Part shown: positions 5,234 to 23,169 of the stretch, piece by piece | Position numbering within the stretch: position 1 is the first letter of the stretch | Layout of the letters: each line of letters starts with the position of its first letter | Source: a virus | IMG/VR virus record: IMGVR_UViG_3300007559_000025 | Location: 1 to 23,169 of that record | DNA: 23,169 nucleotides | Reading direction: 5' to 3' (one strand) | Notes under the pieces: generated by a model | The model's database searches: none | Seen by the model: only the letters and a program-made list of their open reading frames with translations | What the model was told of the DNA's origin: nothing | Position numbers and translations under genes: made by a program

Positions 5234-8200
5234 ATGGCTTTCTTATGCCCCCAACCATCTGCGCCCGCAACGCCTGATTATGCGGCTGCCGCTACTGCTC
5301 AAGGCACAGCAAACAAAGAAACAGCGCTTCTACAAGGTTATTTAAACAACCCTAACGTCAAAGGCCCGTTAGGTGGTCAAACCGTTACGTTTGATCCTGT
5401 TACAAATCAACCCACGATTACGCAAAACTTAACAGGAACGGCACAAAATACGTTGGATGCGCAACAACGTGTGCAATTAGGAATGGCAAACCTTGGTGAG
5501 CAAGGTCTTGCAAGTGCATCAAAAATTATTAGTAAGCCTTTTGAATACACAGGGCCAGCGGGGATTTTCTCACTTGCTGATGCAGGGAAAATTCAAGGCG
5601 CACCCGATTTGACGGGAATGGGCAAAGCCACGGGTGGTTTTACAGGCACAACAGCGGTTGGTAATGCTGTTGGCGATAAAGCACAAGGCTCAATGTTTGG
5701 CTTTGGTGGCACTGCTAGCGGCATGGGTGGTTATGGTACGGCAACGGGTAATGTTGCAAGTGGTCAAGCACTAGGTTCTGTTGCTAACGGTGTTGCACAA
5801 GGCGCTGTTACTAATGGCACGGCACAAGGCACTATAAATAATCCACAAGCTACCGCCAATTTTCAAGGTGGTCAAGCCCAAGGCGCAATGTTTGGTTTTG
5901 GTGGAACTGCTCAAGGTAATTTTCAAGGTGGCACGGCAACGGGTGGCGTAACAGGCCCAACTTTGCAACAAACTTATGGCGATTATGGAACTGTTCAAGG
6001 TGGCCCTGATTTGGGCGGTTATGGTTCTGCCTCATCAATTGGAGCAAATCAATATGGATTATCCCAAGGCGATGTTGGGGCAAATCAATATGGTTTAGCC
6101 CAAGGTAATCTTACGGGTGGTCAATTTGGATCAGCCGCTAACACTACTGCGGCAAATCAATACGGTTTAGCTCAAGGAACTGTTACAGGCAATCAATTTG
6201 GTCAAGCTCAAGGTAATGTTGCGGGCGATCAATTTGGTTTAGCTCAAGGAAATGTTGCCGCAGATCAATACGGTTTGGCGGGCGGTATAAACGCTAATCA
6301 ATATGGCTTGGCAAAAGGAGGCGTTCAAGGTGTCAACTTGCAACAATCCATTGGAAATATTGGTCAAATCAATCAAAACCTAAACCCTAATAATTATCTT
6401 TCTACCAACCAATTAGACTTGAGGAATGTTGCTCAAATGCCCGTTAATGCGGGTACTACGGGGCAAGCGGCAATCATGTCACGGCTTGCGCCTCAATTGG
6501 AACGTCAGCAAAAAGCTACTGCTCAAAACTTGGCAAATCAAGGTTTGGTGGCGGGTGGTGAGGCATACACCAATGCAATGCGAGATCAAAGCCAACAGCA
6601 AAATGACTTGTTAACTCAAGCGGCTTTGCAAGGAATTGGTTTAGATACTGCGGCAAATCAACAGGGCTTTAGTCAAGCCTTGGCTGCGGGTCAATTTGGA
6701 AATCTTGGGCAACAACAAAACTTTGGAAGTGCTTTGGCGGCTCAACAAGCACAAAATGCGGCTCAAGGTCAGGGGTTTAACCAACAATTGCAATCAGGCC
6801 AATTTGGTAATCAAGCGCAGTTGGCAAGTTTTGGTGTTAATTTGCAAAACCAACAAGCACAAAATCAAGCAATTGCCCAAAATTATGGTCAAGGTTTAAG
6901 TGCGCAACAATTAACAAATCAATCTGTTGCACAAAACTTTGGTCAAGGTTTAGCAGCTCAACAAGCCGCAAATGCGGCTATTGCTCAAAACTATAGTCAG
7001 GCAATGAATTCTCAGCAAGCTGCCAATCAAGCAGTCACACAGAATTACGGTCAAGCAATGTCGTCACAACAAGCTGCAAACCAAGCAGTTGCTCAAAACT
7101 TTGGGCAAGGTTTGGCTGCATCCAATGCAACAAATGCGGCTATCAATCAAAACTTTGGTCAGGGATTGGCGGCTCAACAAGCGCAAAACACAGCAGTTGC
7201 TCAGAACTTTGGTCAGGGCATAACTGCGCAAAATGCCGCTAATGCGTCCGTGGCTCAAAACTTTGGTCAAGGCATGACCGCTTCTAATGCGGCAAATGCA
7301 GCGCTTGCGCAAAATCAAAATACTGCATTGCAACAACAAGCGGCTGCAAACCAAGCCCAAGCGCAACAATATGCGCAAGCGCAAGGTAATGCACAATTTG
7401 CCAATCAAGCTCAATTAGCGGGATTTGGTGCAAATCTGCAAAATCAACAAGCGCAAAACCAAGCTATTGCTCAAAATTCAGCTCAAGGATTAGCGCAACA
7501 ACAAGCAGCTAATGCGGCAATAAGTCAAAACTATGGTCAAAACTTGCAAAGTCAGCAAGCTATCAATGCCGCAATTGCTCAAAATTACCAACAAGGTATG
7601 GGAACACAAGCGGCTCAAAATCAAGCGGCTGCGCAGAATTTTGGTCAAAACGTAACTGCTCAACAATTGGCAAACCAAGCGGTTGCGCAAAACTTTGGTC
7701 AAAACGTAACCAATCAACAATTATCAAACGCTGCCGTTGCCCAAAACTTTGGTCAAAATGTGACTAATCAGCAACTTGGAAATCAAGCTACACAGCAAAA
7801 TTTCAACAATGCGATGGCTACTCAACAAGCTCAAAATCAAGCTGTTGCGCAAAACTTTGGTCAAAACTTGTCTGCAACGCAATTAGGCAATCAAGTTATA
7901 AACCAAAATTACCAACAGAATTTGCAATCACAAGAAGCAATCAACCGAGCAGCGGCACAGAACTTTAGTCAGAATGTAACAACCCAACAACTTGCAAATG
8001 CGGCTGCGGCTCAAAACTATCAACAAGGCATGGGTACGCAATCAGCGCAAAACCAAGCACTTGCTCAGAATCAAGCCATTGCCGCACAACAACAACAATT
8101 GGCTAATGCTGCAGTGCTTCAGCAGTACAACCAAAATCTTGGAAGTGCGCAGTTTAGTAACAATGCGGCTTTACAAGATTTACAAGCAAAACTGCAATTA

Positions 8201-8623
8201 CGCAATCAACCTTTGAATGAAATCACGGGTTTGATGAGTGGCTCACAATTGCAAATGCCACAGTTCCAAGGCTACAACCCAACCAATATTGCCCCCGCCC
8301 CCGTGTTTGCGGGTGCGCAAGCGCAAGGTGCGGCTAATATGCAGAATTATGGTATTGCGCAATCGGGTGCTAATGCCACAACAAGCGGATTGTTTAGCCT
8401 TGCGGGTGCGGCAGCTCCGTTTATGTTCTCTGATCGCAAACTAAAGTCAAACATTGAGCGCATTGGCACTCATAAACTTGGAATCGGTCTTTATGAATAT
8501 GACATCTTTGGAGAACGTCAACAAGGCGTAATGGCAGATGAGGCCGAGAAAGTCATGCCTGAAGCAGTTGTGACGCACCCAAGTGGTTACAAAATGGTCA
8601 ACTACGGTTTATTGAACGGGTAA
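5234..8623 (+). CDS. giant Gln/Ala/Gly repeat virion protein with C-terminal S74 chaperone domain
   Basis: The 1129-residue protein has a unique N-terminus (1-125), a Gly-rich region with loose GxAxG repeats (about 130-260), eight 12-residue repeats (272-366), a linker, and 28 in-phase 18-residue units (474-977). The C-terminus (1066-1129) begins SDRKLKSNIERIG and contains QGVMADEAEKVMPEAV and GYKMVNYG. This is the peptidase S74 intramolecular chaperone of endosialidases and fibres, which helps trimer folding and then cleaves itself off before the Ser of SDRKLK. The protein is therefore probably trimeric and part of the virion. The repeats suggest a long shaft: fibre, needle or ejected tube. 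Position before the two ejection-type genes leaves both fibre and internal protein open. Confidence 0.8.
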   Translation: MAFLCPQPSAPATPDYAAAATAQGTANKETALLQGYLNNPNVKGPLGGQTVTFDPVTNQPTITQNLTGTAQNTLDAQQRVQLGMANLGEQGLASASKIISKPFEYTGPAGIFSLADAGKIQGAPDLTGMGKATGGFTGTTAVGNAVGDKAQGSMFGFGGTASGMGGYGTATGNVASGQALGSVANGVAQGAVTNGTAQGTINNPQATANFQGGQAQGAMFGFGGTAQGNFQGGTATGGVTGPTLQQTYGDYGTVQGGPDLGGYGSASSIGANQYGLSQGDVGANQYGLAQGNLTGGQFGSAANTTAANQYGLAQGTVTGNQFGQAQGNVAGDQFGLAQGNVAADQYGLAGGINANQYGLAKGGVQGVNLQQSIGNIGQINQNLNPNNYLSTNQLDLRNVAQMPVNAGTTGQAAIMSRLAPQLERQQKATAQNLANQGLVAGGEAYTNAMRDQSQQQNDLLTQAALQGIGLDTAANQQGFSQALAAGQFGNLGQQQNFGSALAAQQAQNAAQGQGFNQQLQSGQFGNQAQLASFGVNLQNQQAQNQAIAQNYGQGLSAQQLTNQSVAQNFGQGLAAQQAANAAIAQNYSQAMNSQQAANQAVTQNYGQAMSSQQAANQAVAQNFGQGLAASNATNAAINQNFGQGLAAQQAQNTAVAQNFGQGITAQNAANASVAQNFGQGMTASNAANAALAQNQNTALQQQAAANQAQAQQYAQAQGNAQFANQAQLAGFGANLQNQQAQNQAIAQNSAQGLAQQQAANAAISQNYGQNLQSQQAINAAIAQNYQQGMGTQAAQNQAAAQNFGQNVTAQQLANQAVAQNFGQNVTNQQLSNAAVAQNFGQNVTNQQLGNQATQQNFNNAMATQQAQNQAVAQNFGQNLSATQLGNQVINQNYQQNLQSQEAINRAAAQNFSQNVTTQQLANAAAAQNYQQGMGTQSAQNQALAQNQAIAAQQQQLANAAVLQQYNQNLGSAQFSNNAALQDLQAKLQLRNQPLNEITGLMSGSQLQMPQFQGYNPTNIAPAPVFAGAQAQGAANMQNYGIAQSGANATTSGLFSLAGAAAPFMFSDRKLKSNIERIGTHKLGIGLYEYDIFGERQQGVMADEAEKVMPEAVVTHPSGYKMVNYGLLNG
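6047..6331 (+). repeat. eight tandem 12-residue (36-nt) repeats in the giant protein gene
   Basis: Residues 272-366 repeat the pattern (N/D)Q(Y/F)GLAQGNVxG: eight units, seven of 12 residues and one of 11. The DNA units are about 36 nt and have drifted, so this is an old tandem expansion under selection at protein level. It is a different period and composition from the 18-residue array downstream. Confidence 0.85.
6653..8164 (+). repeat. 28 in-phase 18-residue (54-nt) repeats
   Basis: From 6653 to 8164 (1512 nt) the protein keeps an exact 18-residue register with no indel. A typical unit reads AVAQNFGQGLAAQQAANQ; about 20 units are close matches and the outer ones are degenerate. A larger duplication lies inside: the blocks starting near 6800 and 7394 (QFxNQAQLAxFGxNLQNQQ) are 594 nt apart, which is 11 units. 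This shows growth by both single-unit and multi-unit duplication. Confidence 0.85.
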
Positions 8624-20009: not shown

Positions 20010-20628
20010 TTTTAATTTCCATAAGTTGAGCAATTTTTACATCAAGTTCATTTAAGAATTTGACAATTTCTTCTTCCATCAGTCTGATATACATATTGTC
20101 CCGAGGAACACGTTTAACAAACAATTGAAGCTCTTGGGGCAGACGATTGTCAAATGACACAAAGTCACACCAACTACGATTTGTGCAAGCCATTTGAAAT
20201 TGCATCTGGGTGTTGTATTTGCCTGGCACTGTTTGACTAAGCAAAGTTTCAATATGCGTGGCGGTGTTAGGGCATTTGATCTCTAACAGGCCATCATCCC
20301 CCACAAGGCCATCAGGGGACGCACCCGCCATGATTATTGAGGGATGGGGTACAAACCCCACCTCATCCACTAAAACATCGTGTAAAGCCTCATAAGCGGC
20401 TCGGGCAAGAGGTTCTGTGTCTGTGCCGTGTTGCATGGCAGCATTGGTAAAACTATCCCCCTTTTGATTTGTTAGGCGTTCGCACACCAATTGAGCCATG
20501 TAGTTGTCACGGGTTGCTGAATAGCCCGTTTTTGTCTTGGCAAGCACATCCGCTACACGGGATGCGGTAACTTTGCCAATTCGTGCCGCAAACCATTGGT
20601 CTGAGCGTTGTTCAATCATTTCAATCAT
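20002..20628 (-). CDS. YqaJ/lambda-type recombination exonuclease
   Basis: A 208-residue nuclease of the PD-(D/E)xK superfamily. SDQWFAARIGKVTASRVADVL (about 9-29) is the family opening motif, HGTDTEPLARAAYE holds E72, GASPDGLVG holds D106, and LLEIKCP holds E116 and K118; a Gln-rich helix follows (QMQFQMA). Lambda Exo-type enzymes degrade one strand from duplex ends 5'-3' and leave a 3' overhang for the annealing protein encoded just upstream. It overlaps that gene by ATGA (20625-20628) and the SSB-like gene by 8 nt. The active-site residues expected for the family are present. Confidence 0.9.
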   Translation of the reverse strand: MIEMIEQRSDQWFAARIGKVTASRVADVLAKTKTGYSATRDNYMAQLVCERLTNQKGDSFTNAAMQHGTDTEPLARAAYEALHDVLVDEVGFVPHPSIIMAGASPDGLVGDDGLLEIKCPNTATHIETLLSQTVPGKYNTQMQFQMACTNRSWCDFVSFDNRLPQELQLFVKRVPRDNMYIRLMEEEIVKFLNELDVKIAQLMEIKNV

Positions 20629-21227
20629 AATTTCCCCTTTGCTTCATCTTTTGCTGCAATTACTTTAATCTGCCAAGCCTTGTCACCATCACAAGCGGCA
20701 TAAGCTACTCTGTAGGCAACTTTAAGTTCATCTTGTGTAGAGGCGTTGTGAATAGCTAAAAACAAGTCTGTCATGCTGTTTGGGTCAATGGTTGACTCAG
20801 GCTCATCACCTTGCGGAAGATCATCACCAGCGTAGATGTATAGGCCGAGGCCATGCAAGCTAAGTGCTTTGGTCATGCAGCGCATGATGGCTGTGTTAAC
20901 CGCAAACGCATCACATTCAACCCGATACTCTTTGCCATACTTAGAGACCGCTGTATAGCCTTTAAGTGGGATTGCTTTGTTGCCTGAGTCCATCACAGGT
21001 AACTGGCAGGTCATTGGCTTGTCAAACATTGTGACTGTCACCCAGACCATTGCTGTACCATTGATTTCCATGTAGCACTTGCCATCAAACATCTCTACCT
21101 TGAAGGTAGCTTTAGCATCAGCTTTAAGTGCCTCGGCCCATGCCCAAGCCCATGATAGGTAGGTCAGGTTGGCTTTCTTTTCCGTATGCTCATTGACATT
21201 GAGTTTGAGTAATTCTTGCACGTTCAT
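20625..21227 (-). CDS. single-strand annealing protein (DUF1071/Sak-like)
   Basis: A 200-residue protein with LTYLSWAWAWAEALK (21-35), GTAMVWVTVTM and LPVMDSGNKAIPLKGY (76-91), and NTAIMRCMTKALSLHGLGLYIYAGDDLP (111-138). These are the hallmarks of the DUF1071/SSAP_Sak family, related to Sak/Erf/Red-beta type recombinases. They coat single strands and anneal complementary ones after exonuclease resection. The gene is followed by the exonuclease with an ATGA overlap. The last third (about 145-200) is helical and less conserved. With the neighbours it forms a complete phage recombination set. Confidence 0.88.
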   Translation of the reverse strand: MNVQELLKLNVNEHTEKKANLTYLSWAWAWAEALKADAKATFKVEMFDGKCYMEINGTAMVWVTVTMFDKPMTCQLPVMDSGNKAIPLKGYTAVSKYGKEYRVECDAFAVNTAIMRCMTKALSLHGLGLYIYAGDDLPQGDEPESTIDPNSMTDLFLAIHNASTQDELKVAYRVAYAACDGDKAWQIKVIAAKDEAKGKL

Positions 21228-21382
21228 GATTCAATTCTTTCAATTTGTTTAGCTACTAACCATTTGTCACCCAATTGGCGCACAGAGCGCACCCATTGGC
21301 GTTGATAGGAACGGATAACTTCAGGCGGTGCGTCATACCGTGAAAATATGCGTCTTACTTGTTTAAGAAAACGTGTGTTCAT
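21224..21382 (-). CDS. small basic protein, unknown function
   Basis: A 52-residue basic, helical protein: MNTRFLKQVRRIFSRYDAPP, then SYQRQWVRSVRQLGDKWLVAKQIERIES. GGAGG lies just upstream, 5 nt before the ATG at 21382; an alternative ATG is at 21385, and a much longer start at 21442 has no such RBS. It overlaps the annealing protein by ATGA and the upstream membrane peptide's stop by one base (TGATG). The basic helices could bind nucleic acid, but I recognise no family. Confidence 0.55.
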   Translation of the reverse strand: MNTRFLKQVRRIFSRYDAPPEVIRSYQRQWVRSVRQLGDKWLVAKQIERIES

Positions 21383-21474
21383 CATCCCCTCCAAGCTAAC
21401 ATTACGCCAATGCCGCCAAAGATGACGATGGCAAGCACACATTCAATAAGTGTTTGAATAATCTTAGATTTCAT
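21382..21474 (-). CDS. 30-residue membrane peptide in the early operon
   Basis: Between two overlapped genes is a short ORF reading MKSKIIQTLIECVLAIVIFG followed by GIGVMLAWRG. It has a basic N-terminus, one membrane helix (about 8-27), and a short Arg end, consistent with a single-pass inner-membrane peptide. It overlaps the upstream gene by 11 nt and shares its stop with the next start (TGATG), so its place in the operon is tight. Early small membrane peptides in phages can block superinfection or alter the host membrane, but that is only a possibility. Confidence 0.5.
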   Translation of the reverse strand: MKSKIIQTLIECVLAIVIFGGIGVMLAWRG

Positions 21475-21736
21475 TTTGTTCTTTCAGCATACGAGCGTGG
21501 TGAATCTTGGTTTCAGACATGATGTGTTGAAATTCAGATAAAGGCAGATCGCAAGAAATGTCATCACCTTTTAGGTTAAAGACAAACACATCGTAGATTT
21601 CCGCTGAGTTGTGGTCATGTGGCAGATTGATTTCTGCGGGGTAGTAGTCATAGCCGACTTTTACGTTTTCAAGCGTTGTGCCATTGTCATAAGACACAAC
21701 GTCATCAAAGTAATAGTGGAGTTTGTAGTCAATCAT
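21464..21736 (-). CDS. first gene of the leftward operon, unknown function
   Basis: A 90-residue acidic protein starting MIDYKLHYYFDDVVSYDNGT with beta-type strands (VKVGYDYYPAEINLP, YDVFVFNLKGDD) and a C-terminal helix (LSEFQHIMSETKIHHARMLKEQ). No known motif. AGAAAGG at 21742-21748 with a 5-nt gap supports the ATG at 21736; the longer reading from 21838 would run through the promoter and operator. As the first gene after the leftward promoter it is probably expressed early and strongly. Function unknown. Confidence 0.6.
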   Translation of the reverse strand: MIDYKLHYYFDDVVSYDNGTTLENVKVGYDYYPAEINLPHDHNSAEIYDVFVFNLKGDDISCDLPLSEFQHIMSETKIHHARMLKEQNEI

Positions 21737-21778
21737 CTTTACCTTTCTAAATAGACCCCAAAAGTAGGGCATGGGTGG

Positions 21779-21808
21779 ACTATAACGCACCTTATATAAC
21801 CAAGTCAA
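21779..21808 (-). promoter_or_regulatory. sigma70-like promoter for the leftward early operon
   Basis: On the minus strand TTGACT (21803-21808) is followed 18 nt later by TATAGT (21779-21784), each one base from consensus. Transcription would begin at about 21771 and reach the gene at 21736 with a leader of about 35 nt. The -35 box lies inside the ATAACC-N13-GGTTAT inverted repeat, so a repressor bound there would block it. Confidence 0.7.
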
Positions 21809-21820
21809 GTGTAAGGTTAT
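21796..21820. promoter_or_regulatory. candidate operator: ATAACC-N13-GGTTAT inverted repeat
   Basis: Perfect 6-bp arms, 21796-21801 and 21815-21820, centred on the -35 box of the leftward promoter. An overlapping pair ACCTTA (21789-21794) and TAAGGT (21812-21817) gives the same symmetry. The spacing fits a dimeric repressor contacting two major grooves. The likely binder is the Cro-like protein encoded at 21847. Confidence 0.5.
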
Positions 21821-21833
21821 TAGCGAACTAATA
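21818..21833. promoter_or_regulatory. candidate operator: 16-bp palindrome TATTAG-CGAA-CTAATA
   Basis: Perfect 6-bp arms around a 4-bp centre, 14 bp upstream of the cro-like ATG and touching the candidate rightward -10 box. This position fits autoregulation: bound protein would stop RNA polymerase at the repressor's own promoter. Confidence 0.55.
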
Positions 21834-21846
21834 TACAATCTGCCTT
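21834..21846 (+). promoter_or_regulatory. candidate rightward promoter, possible leaderless start
   Basis: TACAAT (21834-21839) is one base from the -10 consensus and ends 7 nt before the ATG of the cro-like gene, so transcription would begin at or next to the start codon. No RBS is visible before the ATG. The -35 region (about 21811-21816) is poor, so the promoter may be weak. The known lambda cI transcript from PRM is leaderless, which makes the reading plausible. Confidence 0.4.
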
Positions 21847-22005
21847 ATGGACAAAAACAAGTTTATTGCATTAGCAGGCTCACAGGATGAGCTAGCCAAA
21901 CTGTTAGGCATTAGCCAGGCGGCTGTGTCTCAATGGAAAACTGTGCCTCAAGCAAGGGTTTGGCAATTAAAGTTGTTAAAACCTGAATGGTTTGACAATA
22001 AATAA
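21847..22005 (+). CDS. P22 Cro-like transcription repressor
   Basis: A 52-residue protein (MDKNKFIALAGSQDELAKLL, then GISQAAVSQWKTVPQARVWQ and LKLLKPEWFDNK) with a helix-turn-helix at about residues 13-33. The run ISQAAVSQWKTVP followed by a xxxWQLKLL helix matches the P22 Cro family (AVSQW...VP...AYRLE). Such proteins bind palindromic operators as dimers and switch early gene expression. It is divergent to the leftward operon with two inverted repeats between. Its last codons contain the -35 box of the small RNA promoter at 21992. No CI partner is visible, so it may be the sole regulator here. Confidence 0.8.
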   Translation: MDKNKFIALAGSQDELAKLLGISQAAVSQWKTVPQARVWQLKLLKPEWFDNK

Positions 22006-22021
22006 AAAATGTGTTTATAAT
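21992..22021 (+). promoter_or_regulatory. perfect-consensus sigma70 promoter for the small RNA
   Basis: TTGACA (21992-21997) and TATAAT (22016-22021) both match the consensus exactly and are 18 nt apart. The -35 box lies within the last codons of the cro-like gene. Transcription should start around 22027-22029, just before a structured region that ends in a T tract. It is the strongest-looking promoter in the window. Confidence 0.85.
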
Positions 22022-22027
22022 TTAATC

Positions 22028-22128
22028 GTTGCCGTGAGAAGCGACCTGATGAAGCCACTTAATTCTACTCTCGCCCTTGGTATTTGCCGCAGGGTTCTCA
22101 CCGAGGGTAGAGCTAAGTGGCTTTTTTT
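22028..22128 (+). ncRNA. about 100-nt structured phage small RNA, possibly C4/CI antisense class
   Basis: Between a perfect promoter and a T tract the sequence forms a closing stem AAGCCACTTA (22052-22061) with TAAGTGGCTT (22114-22123), an inner stem CTACTCTC (22065-22072) with GAGGGTAG (22103-22110), and an apical CCCT/AGGG pair. The 5' part GTGAGAA (22034-22040) can pair with TTCTCAC (22095-22101), which crosses the main stem: a pseudoknot or a switch. No convincing coding frame fits. The arrangement resembles, from memory, the C4 antisense RNA of P1/P7 and CI RNA of P4, which silence phage genes by pairing with mRNA leaders. The class call is tentative; that it is an RNA gene is well supported. 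Confidence 0.75.
22052..22128 (+). terminator. terminator hairpin forming the 3' end of the small RNA
   Basis: The 10-bp perfect stem (22052-22061 with 22114-22123) ends directly in TTTTT (to 22128). Its large loop carries the inner stem, so the terminator and RNA core are the same structure. It should also limit read-through from cro into the replication genes. Confidence 0.65.
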
Positions 22129-22411
22129 ACGTCTATTTTCTTTGCATCCGTACTCCACACGACAGCAGCGCATTTGCATGGATGGCTTGGAAGAAAACAC
22201 CGACAACAGGACACACCCCCTGCATTGCCGATCAGCGTTGGTTAAGCGACTGATAAAGCATTTGGTACAACGGTGGAAACAAGGCCAGATGTATAAGCGA
22301 ATTGACCCGTCAAGCGCACTTGGTTGCTCTTGTTTTTAGTTAGACGAATTAAGATGAATTATGGAAAACAGAGTGATGGAGAAAGGTGGTATATCCACCC
22401 TTGGAGAACCT
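22129..22411 (+). other. region between small RNA and replication gene, no convincing gene
   Basis: About 280 nt hold no well-supported gene. A 53-residue frame (22178-22339, basic helical middle KRLIKHLVQRWKQGQMYKR) has no RBS and is doubtful. AAGCGACTGATAAAGC (22244-22259) is an imperfect copy of AAGCGACCTGATGAAGC in the small RNA (22039-22055). A GGTGG-TATAT-CCACC inverted repeat (22386-22400) sits just before the replication gene's RBS and could affect its translation. Confidence 0.4.
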
Positions 22412-22831
22412 ATGCCTAAAGAAAACACAATGGATTTATTTGGCTTTGAACAACCCCAAAAGCATTTTTTAACAGATGAGGGGTTCGATGAATTCTGGTC
22501 TGCATATCCTAGATGTGACCGTAAGGGCGAAAGAGCTGCTTGCAAGAAAAAGTGGACTGAATCTTACTATTTCTCTCAAAAGCACATTATTTTGAAGCAC
22601 GTTCAATGGATGGCTACCACAGCGCAATGGTTGAGAGACAACGGGTCTTGGATTCCCGCCCCTAAGGTTTATTTAAACCAACAACGATGGGATGGCGCTG
22701 ATATTCCTGAGATTAAGGCTAAACCCCTGATTGACCCCGCTTTGGCAAAGATTGAAGCTGACAACAAAAAAGCCGCACCTATGCCTGAACACATAAGACA
22801 AAAAATTGCACAAATGAAAGGTAGGTCATGA
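22412..22831 (+). CDS. replication protein, O/DnaT-like C-terminal type
   Basis: A 139-residue protein with FDEFWSAYPRCDRKGERAACKKKW, a middle helix, and GSWIPAPKVYLNQQRWDGADIPE. This FWxxYP...IPxPxxYLNQxRW pattern is common in the C-terminal half of phage replication initiation and DnaT-like proteins, which help load the host helicase. Here only that half is present; no winged-helix N-terminus is seen. GGAG with a 5-nt gap supports the ATG at 22412; an upstream in-frame ATG at 22361 lacks an RBS. It overlaps the methyltransferase start by ATGA. The lambda-like order cro, regulatory RNA, replication gene supports the assignment. Confidence 0.65.
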   Translation: MPKENTMDLFGFEQPQKHFLTDEGFDEFWSAYPRCDRKGERAACKKKWTESYYFSQKHIILKHVQWMATTAQWLRDNGSWIPAPKVYLNQQRWDGADIPEIKAKPLIDPALAKIEADNKKAAPMPEHIRQKIAQMKGRS

Positions 22832-23169
22832 ATGAGTTGGCTCTTTTCGCAGGCGCTGGTGGAGGAATTCTCGGAGGCCATTTGCTTGGATGGCGAACAG
22901 TCTGTGCCGTTGAGTGGGAGCAATACCCCGCAAGCGTACTGTGCGCCCGACAAAATGACGGGCTTCTCCCGCCTTTCCCGATTTGGGATGACGTACAAAC
23001 CTTTGACGGAAAGCCGTGGCGAGGAATTGTTGACGTTGTATCGGGAGGGTTTCCTTGCCAGGACATCAGCGCAGCAGGACGAGGCGCAGGAATTGACGGT
23101 GAACGATCAAGTATGTGGAAACACATGGCGAGGATCATTGGCGAGGTTAGACCCAGATACGCTTTTGTG
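22828..23169 (+). CDS. DNA cytosine-C5 methyltransferase, partial (3' end outside window)
   Basis: The first 114 residues are visible. LFAGAGGGILGGHLLGW (6-22) is motif I, which binds S-adenosylmethionine, VEWEQYPASVLCARQN is motif II, and GGFPCQDIS (73-81) is motif IV with catalytic C77. The window ends just before the expected ENV motif VI, with RPRYAFV. The enzyme transfers a methyl group to carbon 5 of cytosine; in phages this often protects DNA from host restriction. No matching restriction endonuclease is seen here. The start is an ATGA overlap with the replication gene. Its recognition sequence cannot be predicted, since the target-recognition domain is not in the window. Confidence 0.9.
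   Translation, partial: MNELALFAGAGGGILGGHLLGWRTVCAVEWEQYPASVLCARQNDGLLPPFPIWDDVQTFDGKPWRGIVDVVSGGFPCQDISAAGRGAGIDGERSSMWKHMARIIGEVRPRYAFV

Follow-up and report, generated by a model that had tools for sequence, protein, structure and literature searches.

What does the stretch between the cro-like gene and the rep gene of this virus encode? In the window, which is the entire 23,169-base IMG/VR virus record, these two genes flank a region where the first-pass annotation had placed a small, so far unannotated RNA under a promoter of its own, and our analysis supported that RNA. With moderate confidence, we propose that the 5′ module of a modular noncoding RNA of phages is encoded here, an RNA that had not been described before and that probably acts in trans.

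Promoter and fold of the 5′ module

The features of this first module, a type A RNA, were located as follows.

21992–22021, + strand: sigma-70 promoter TTGACA-N18-TATAAT (12/12 match; 0 expected in shuffles)
22028–22045, + strand: 5′ hairpin H1, GUUGC/GCGAC with an 8-nt loop (5 bp in the fold; helix 100% paired in the alignment; GTTGNNGT in 110/110 relatives, upstream of the closing stem)
22034–22040, + strand: pseudoknot strand 1, GUGAGAA, in the H1 loop (109/110 exact complements in relatives)
22051–22124, + strand: long U-tailed hairpin (fold; 14/23 helix pairs changed on both sides)
22051–22061 with 22114–22124, + strand: closing stem, 11 bp (fold)
22063–22073 with 22102–22112, + strand: middle stem, 11 pairs (fold)
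22074–22094, + strand: apical hairpin of the long hairpin (fold)
22095–22101, + strand: pseudoknot strand 2, UUCUCAC, bulged from the 3′ strand of the long hairpin (left unpaired by the nested fold; complements in relatives)
22122–22128, + strand: U7 tract, probable intrinsic terminator or attenuator (sequence)

The promoter had been called perfect, and it was: all 12 positions matched and none would be expected by chance. Its –35 box overlaps the final codons of cro, and it is the sole recognizable + strand promoter in 20500–23169. Within 22 nt upstream of the type A RNA, a –10 box (at least 5/6) was present at 79/110 loci, and at 77 of these 79 it lay 6–7 nt ahead of GTTG, the first bases of the RNA. 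From this spacing, the initial G of the 5′ hairpin is the expected start site, and transcription in the window would begin at 22028. The U tract reported after the stems was likewise present, as the U7 listed above. In the set of 110 relatives, the U-tail is present by construction, since GGCTTTT belonged to the search pattern.

The RNA 22028–22130 folded at –44.9 kcal/mol (z = –5.6), and 0/200 shuffles folded as well. Both stems that had been described were present, although the inner one, given as 8 bp, was understated at 11 pairs, and the closing stem measured 11 bp rather than 10. The 7-bp crossing pairing was also found, between 22034–22040 and 22095–22101. The first-pass annotation had read it as either a pseudoknot or a switch between two folds. 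Because both strands are already unpaired in the minimum-energy fold, one in the H1 loop and the other in the bulge, the crossing pair competes with no stem. It is a loop–bulge pseudoknot that coexists with every stem, rather than a sign of alternative folds. A two-state switch, in which forming the crossing pair would rule out the terminator hairpin and vice versa, draws on the existence of that pair, but the pairing is compatible with the terminator stem and was conserved together with it in 110/110 relatives. This reading is largely refuted, and we give it very little probability. The linker between H1 and the long hairpin was 4–9 nt, and the required intramolecular reach of ~21 bp is tight. 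With so short a linker, the loop–bulge contact could instead be made between two molecules.

Compensatory change among type A relatives

A total of 110 distinct type A RNAs, from related freshwater phages, were gathered by the closing stem only. The pseudoknot was kept in 110/110, with a perfect 7-nt Watson–Crick complement in 109 and a G-U pair in the remaining one, while the pseudoknot loop took 24 different sequences. When loops were swapped between relatives differing by at least 2 bases, 0 exact complements were obtained in 2269 trials. Among 38 aligned type A RNAs, 18/35 pairs had changed on both sides, and the covariation score was 0.318 against 0.07–0.11 in slid controls. MAFFT mis-registered the bulge in some alignment rows (pseudoknot 78% paired there), and pairing was therefore tested sequence by sequence. 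The check for compensatory change that had been proposed for relatives was thus borne out, since stems and pseudoknot were kept with double-sided changes. By comparative sequence, a loop–bulge pseudoknot kept by compensatory change is established, as is a predicted promoter with conserved spacing just upstream.

The length of the type A RNA varied from 89 to 119 nt across relatives, and not in multiples of three, so no coding frame is kept. A conserved protein-coding frame, which would have spoken against the RNA, was accordingly absent. An open frame (21992–22339) does cross the region in the window, but the covariation controls and these length differences stand against both a coding frame and chance inverted repeats. 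Compensatory change has already refuted this explanation, and its probability is negligible. That a structured RNA exists is near certain.

A second structured RNA and the exchange of modules

Conserved noncoding structured RNA extends past the end of the feature first annotated, from 22148 to about 22420. The features of this module 2 are given below.

22148–22336, + strand: module 2, class alpha (80–97% identity while the upstream module changes type; 38/57 consensus pairs with double changes, counted in 29 sequences)
22240–22245, + strand: module 2 pseudoknot strand 1, GGUUAA (pairs with 22302–22307; 5/6 pairs double-changed, 100% paired)
22258–22292, + strand: module 2 helix, GCAUUUGG (22258–22265) with CCAGAUGU (22285–22292) (8/8 pairs double-changed)
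22302–22307, + strand: module 2 pseudoknot strand 2, UUGACC (pairs with 22240–22245)
22389–22422, + strand: 3′ element UAUCCACCCUUGGRGAAYCUAUGNCUAAA, which closes module 2 (core CACCCTTGG in 43/65 alpha loci)

In the module 2 core alignment (27 sequences), covariation reached 0.577 against at most 0.085 when slid, a control that is somewhat flattering because the pairs counted came from the same alignment. The CACCCTTGG core was also present where no gene starts, for example in loci L103, L094, and L164. The block 22142–22339, where open frames cluster, was considered as a small protein and rejected, as its covariation shows RNA. Additionally, a resemblance to RNase P in one module 2 string (GGUGGAACAAGGCC) was set aside since no model matches, and a CTGATGA string like a hammerhead core was dropped since no matching core follows. 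Within 22361–22433, the start of the rep ORF is probably 22430 (MDLFGFEQ) and not 22361, with many relatives aligning only from residues 20–25; the part ahead of 22430 is the conserved 3′ element of the RNA.

Both modules came in several kinds. Searching with the rep protein gave 80 viral loci. At the same site, these carried type A (21), a larger type B (49), or type C (2), as assigned partly by eye, and 8 loci ended before the site. Such an RNA was carried by 72/72 rep-neighbor loci complete at the site. In type B, an equivalent crossing helix of at least 8 bp was found in 81/97, compared with 46/943 when swapped. Further variants with the same topology lay upstream of module 2 (GCUGACCC/GGGUCAGC, CUUGGU/ACCAAG, and GUGGCAU/AUGCCAC), and the type A covariance model, R1, matched several such variants (L407, L410, L412, and L452). 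Module 2 fell into class beta at 86 loci (5 type A, 81 type B), class alpha at 65 (40 type A, 25 type B), and at least 4 rarer classes, and types A and B were seen in combination with alpha, beta, and other classes.

A U-tailed hairpin RNA lay just upstream at 154/157 module-2 loci, and a 5′-to-interior complement of at least 7 nt was found upstream of module 2 at 142 loci, compared with 186/902 when swapped. Two type A loci (L132 and L170) had no recognized module 2, which indicates that module 1 can stand alone. The near-constant pairing of the two modules, together with the mixing of A and B with alpha and beta, points to two modules that are exchanged independently. Sequence comparison, again, establishes the second module as a covarying RNA with a pseudoknot and both modules as exchanged, independently, for other folds. 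In L493, L515, L521, and L522, an extra helical segment of ~100 nt (GGAACTAGGTCGGG...CCGACCTAGTTCC type) sits between module 1 and module 2 beta.

Distribution and probable mode of action

The position between cro and the replication gene, stressed by the first-pass annotation, is true in the window, but the tie is incidental, as the RNA occurs in many unrelated phage loci. Other contexts were scaffold/coat, terminase/giant protein, and nuclease/primase genes (gene names are our reading of the sequences). Arrays of tRNAs stand directly upstream of the RNA at L166:7027–8044 (6 tRNAs) and L410:5518–5868 (3 tRNAs), but not next to it at most loci tested, nor in the window. Each locus had one copy of the RNA, and two were never seen in any. 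One copy per locus, amid many apparently unrelated gene neighborhoods, is the pattern that the compared loci establish.

Several proteins were also recorded. In many phages, a cysteine-rich, apparently exported small protein (MKKAIIGVWLGLS...TCTTCCYG...CTTNCF) ends right before the RNA promoter (L407, L451, L458, L472, and L480). Giant proteins downstream, at L116:RNA+453.. and L128:RNA+413.., have a start that by eye resembles ADP-ribosyltransferase-like domains. In the window, 5234–8623 encodes a 1129-aa protein built mostly from degenerate repeats rich in Q, N, and A (AQNFGQ...).

When viral contigs were scanned with patterns for types A and B, at least about 120 stretches were returned, a figure that understates the true number. 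Of 50,697 deposited phages, 1 carried the RNA, MW202484.1 from Manatee Spring. There, the RNA locus at 33533–33892 (L002:3829–4188) is annotated as hypothetical protein UOF77725.1, which is probably not a gene. The plasmids searched gave 0 matches, as did the type B pattern against 84,980 species genomes. The type A pattern matched two MAG contigs among ~85k species genomes, from a Comamonadaceae bacterium and an uncultured betaproteobacterium, and an R1 scan of 401 related bacterial genomes matched 1, the starting genome itself. The RNA is almost confined to uncultivated phage contigs. This near-absence from bacterial genomes indicates that the RNAs belong to phage rather than host, and a bacterial host RNA was ruled out on the same counts. 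The two MAGs suggest that the hosts are freshwater betaproteobacteria.

The C4/CI class had been offered as the best-known relative. An antisense RNA of that kind, controlling an antirepressor or other phage gene by base pairing, would likewise be a small structured RNA of a phage, located near cro in a region resembling an immunity region. However, the proposed search with the C4 model (RF01695) gave no match at E ≤ 10 on 21900–22400. The longest antisense complementarity within the window was 11 nt, as chance predicts, and no conserved unpaired segment that could serve as a seed was found in the RNA. No antirepressor gene lies beside it, as had been noted, the neighbors being cro-like and rep. 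The fold also differs from that of C4, and the gene neighborhoods are many and different. We therefore consider the C4/CI assignment highly improbable.

The main rival to a trans-acting RNA is a cis-acting leader or attenuator like lambda pR′-tR′ (6S RNA) or HK022 put, in which read-through would depend on an antiterminator or on a direct effect of the RNA on polymerase. Its layout fits, with a promoter, ~100 nt, a U-tailed hairpin, and then genes in the same direction, and the module often stands ahead of a co-directional gene block. Furthermore, no other + strand promoter for rep was recognized in 20500–23169, so rep may be reached by read-through, and a cis role would be compatible with that. 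Against this, the same RNA precedes unrelated genes and also sits inside gene blocks, and so variable a gene context argues against a gene-specific leader. In L103 and L164, sequences resembling promoters follow module 2 and precede the coat gene, so that read-through is not required for coat-gene expression. A terminator would not need two modules of such elaborate covarying structure, and the tRNA-array neighbors in L166 and L410 also count against a leader. Overall, a cis attenuator appears unlikely, although it deserves serious weight.

The reading we prefer is a trans-acting folded RNA. It is favored by a fold conserved despite sequence drift, the lack of any conserved unpaired stretch or antisense target, and the varied neighbors; the case for trans action itself depends on the movement of the RNA among gene contexts and on its lack of a conserved unpaired seed. 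Most transcripts would stop at U7, giving a compact RNA of ~100 nt, and some may read through to give a two-module RNA of ~390 nt. The RNA would then act in trans as a folded object, perhaps a protein- or RNA-binding scaffold or a decoy made during infection, and probably neither by antisense pairing nor by switching its neighbors. More tentatively, the two modules may form one RNA machine, swapped like protein domains between phages and acting jointly in trans. In such a machine, module 1 might be any of several unrelated folds sharing the loop-to-interior pseudoknot topology, possibly within an assembly joined by loop–bulge contacts; we hold this equally tentatively.

Phage genomes are usually economical, yet every complete readable rep-locus relative spends some 400 nt on these RNAs, which unrelated phages also have, at different sites. 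This implies that RNA alone performs a valuable function. As an instance of domain shuffling in noncoding RNA, the independent exchange of whole modules at a single genomic site would be unusually clear. The family is absent from Rfam, so automated annotation overlooks the RNA or, as in MW202484.1, takes it for a hypothetical protein. Enough of the fold is defined for break-and-restore mutants to be designed.

Comparison with known RNAs

No Rfam family matched at its gathering threshold in the window and 15 related loci, and more sensitive scans of 21900–22400 (E ≤ 10) and of L322 and L269 (E ≤ 2) added none. The best weak match was PK-repBA (RF01089), which scored 21.6 bits (cutoff, 45) and lay on the opposite strand. 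This plasmid pseudoknot is alike in lying near a rep gene, and we judged it not related. No description of the RNA was found in the literature; preprints and subscription journals were largely outside the coverage, and an earlier description is possible. The lambda 6S RNA (pR′-tR′ leader) and the HK022 put RNAs combine a strong promoter, a short RNA, a terminator, and downstream phage genes. In contrast, the present RNA has a pseudoknot, moves between operons, and stands ahead of another structured module.

In style, the RNA comes closest to GOLLD and ROOL, noncoding RNAs of phages or prophages that have several pseudoknots and no known function and sometimes lie beside tRNA arrays (PMC12286853). 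The likeness lies in the phage location and the pseudoknots; tRNA arrays adjoin the present RNA in L166 and L410 but not at most loci tested. Neither model matched at the gathering threshold in the window and 15 related loci, nor at E ≤ 2 on L322 and L269, and we do not claim membership in these families, of which an RNA-only multimeric cage is a feature. GOLLD and ROOL span several hundred to >800 nt, whereas the RNA described here has about 100 + 290 nt, and it differs further in that unrelated folds replace both its 5′ and its 3′ module, with a terminator-like tail between the two.
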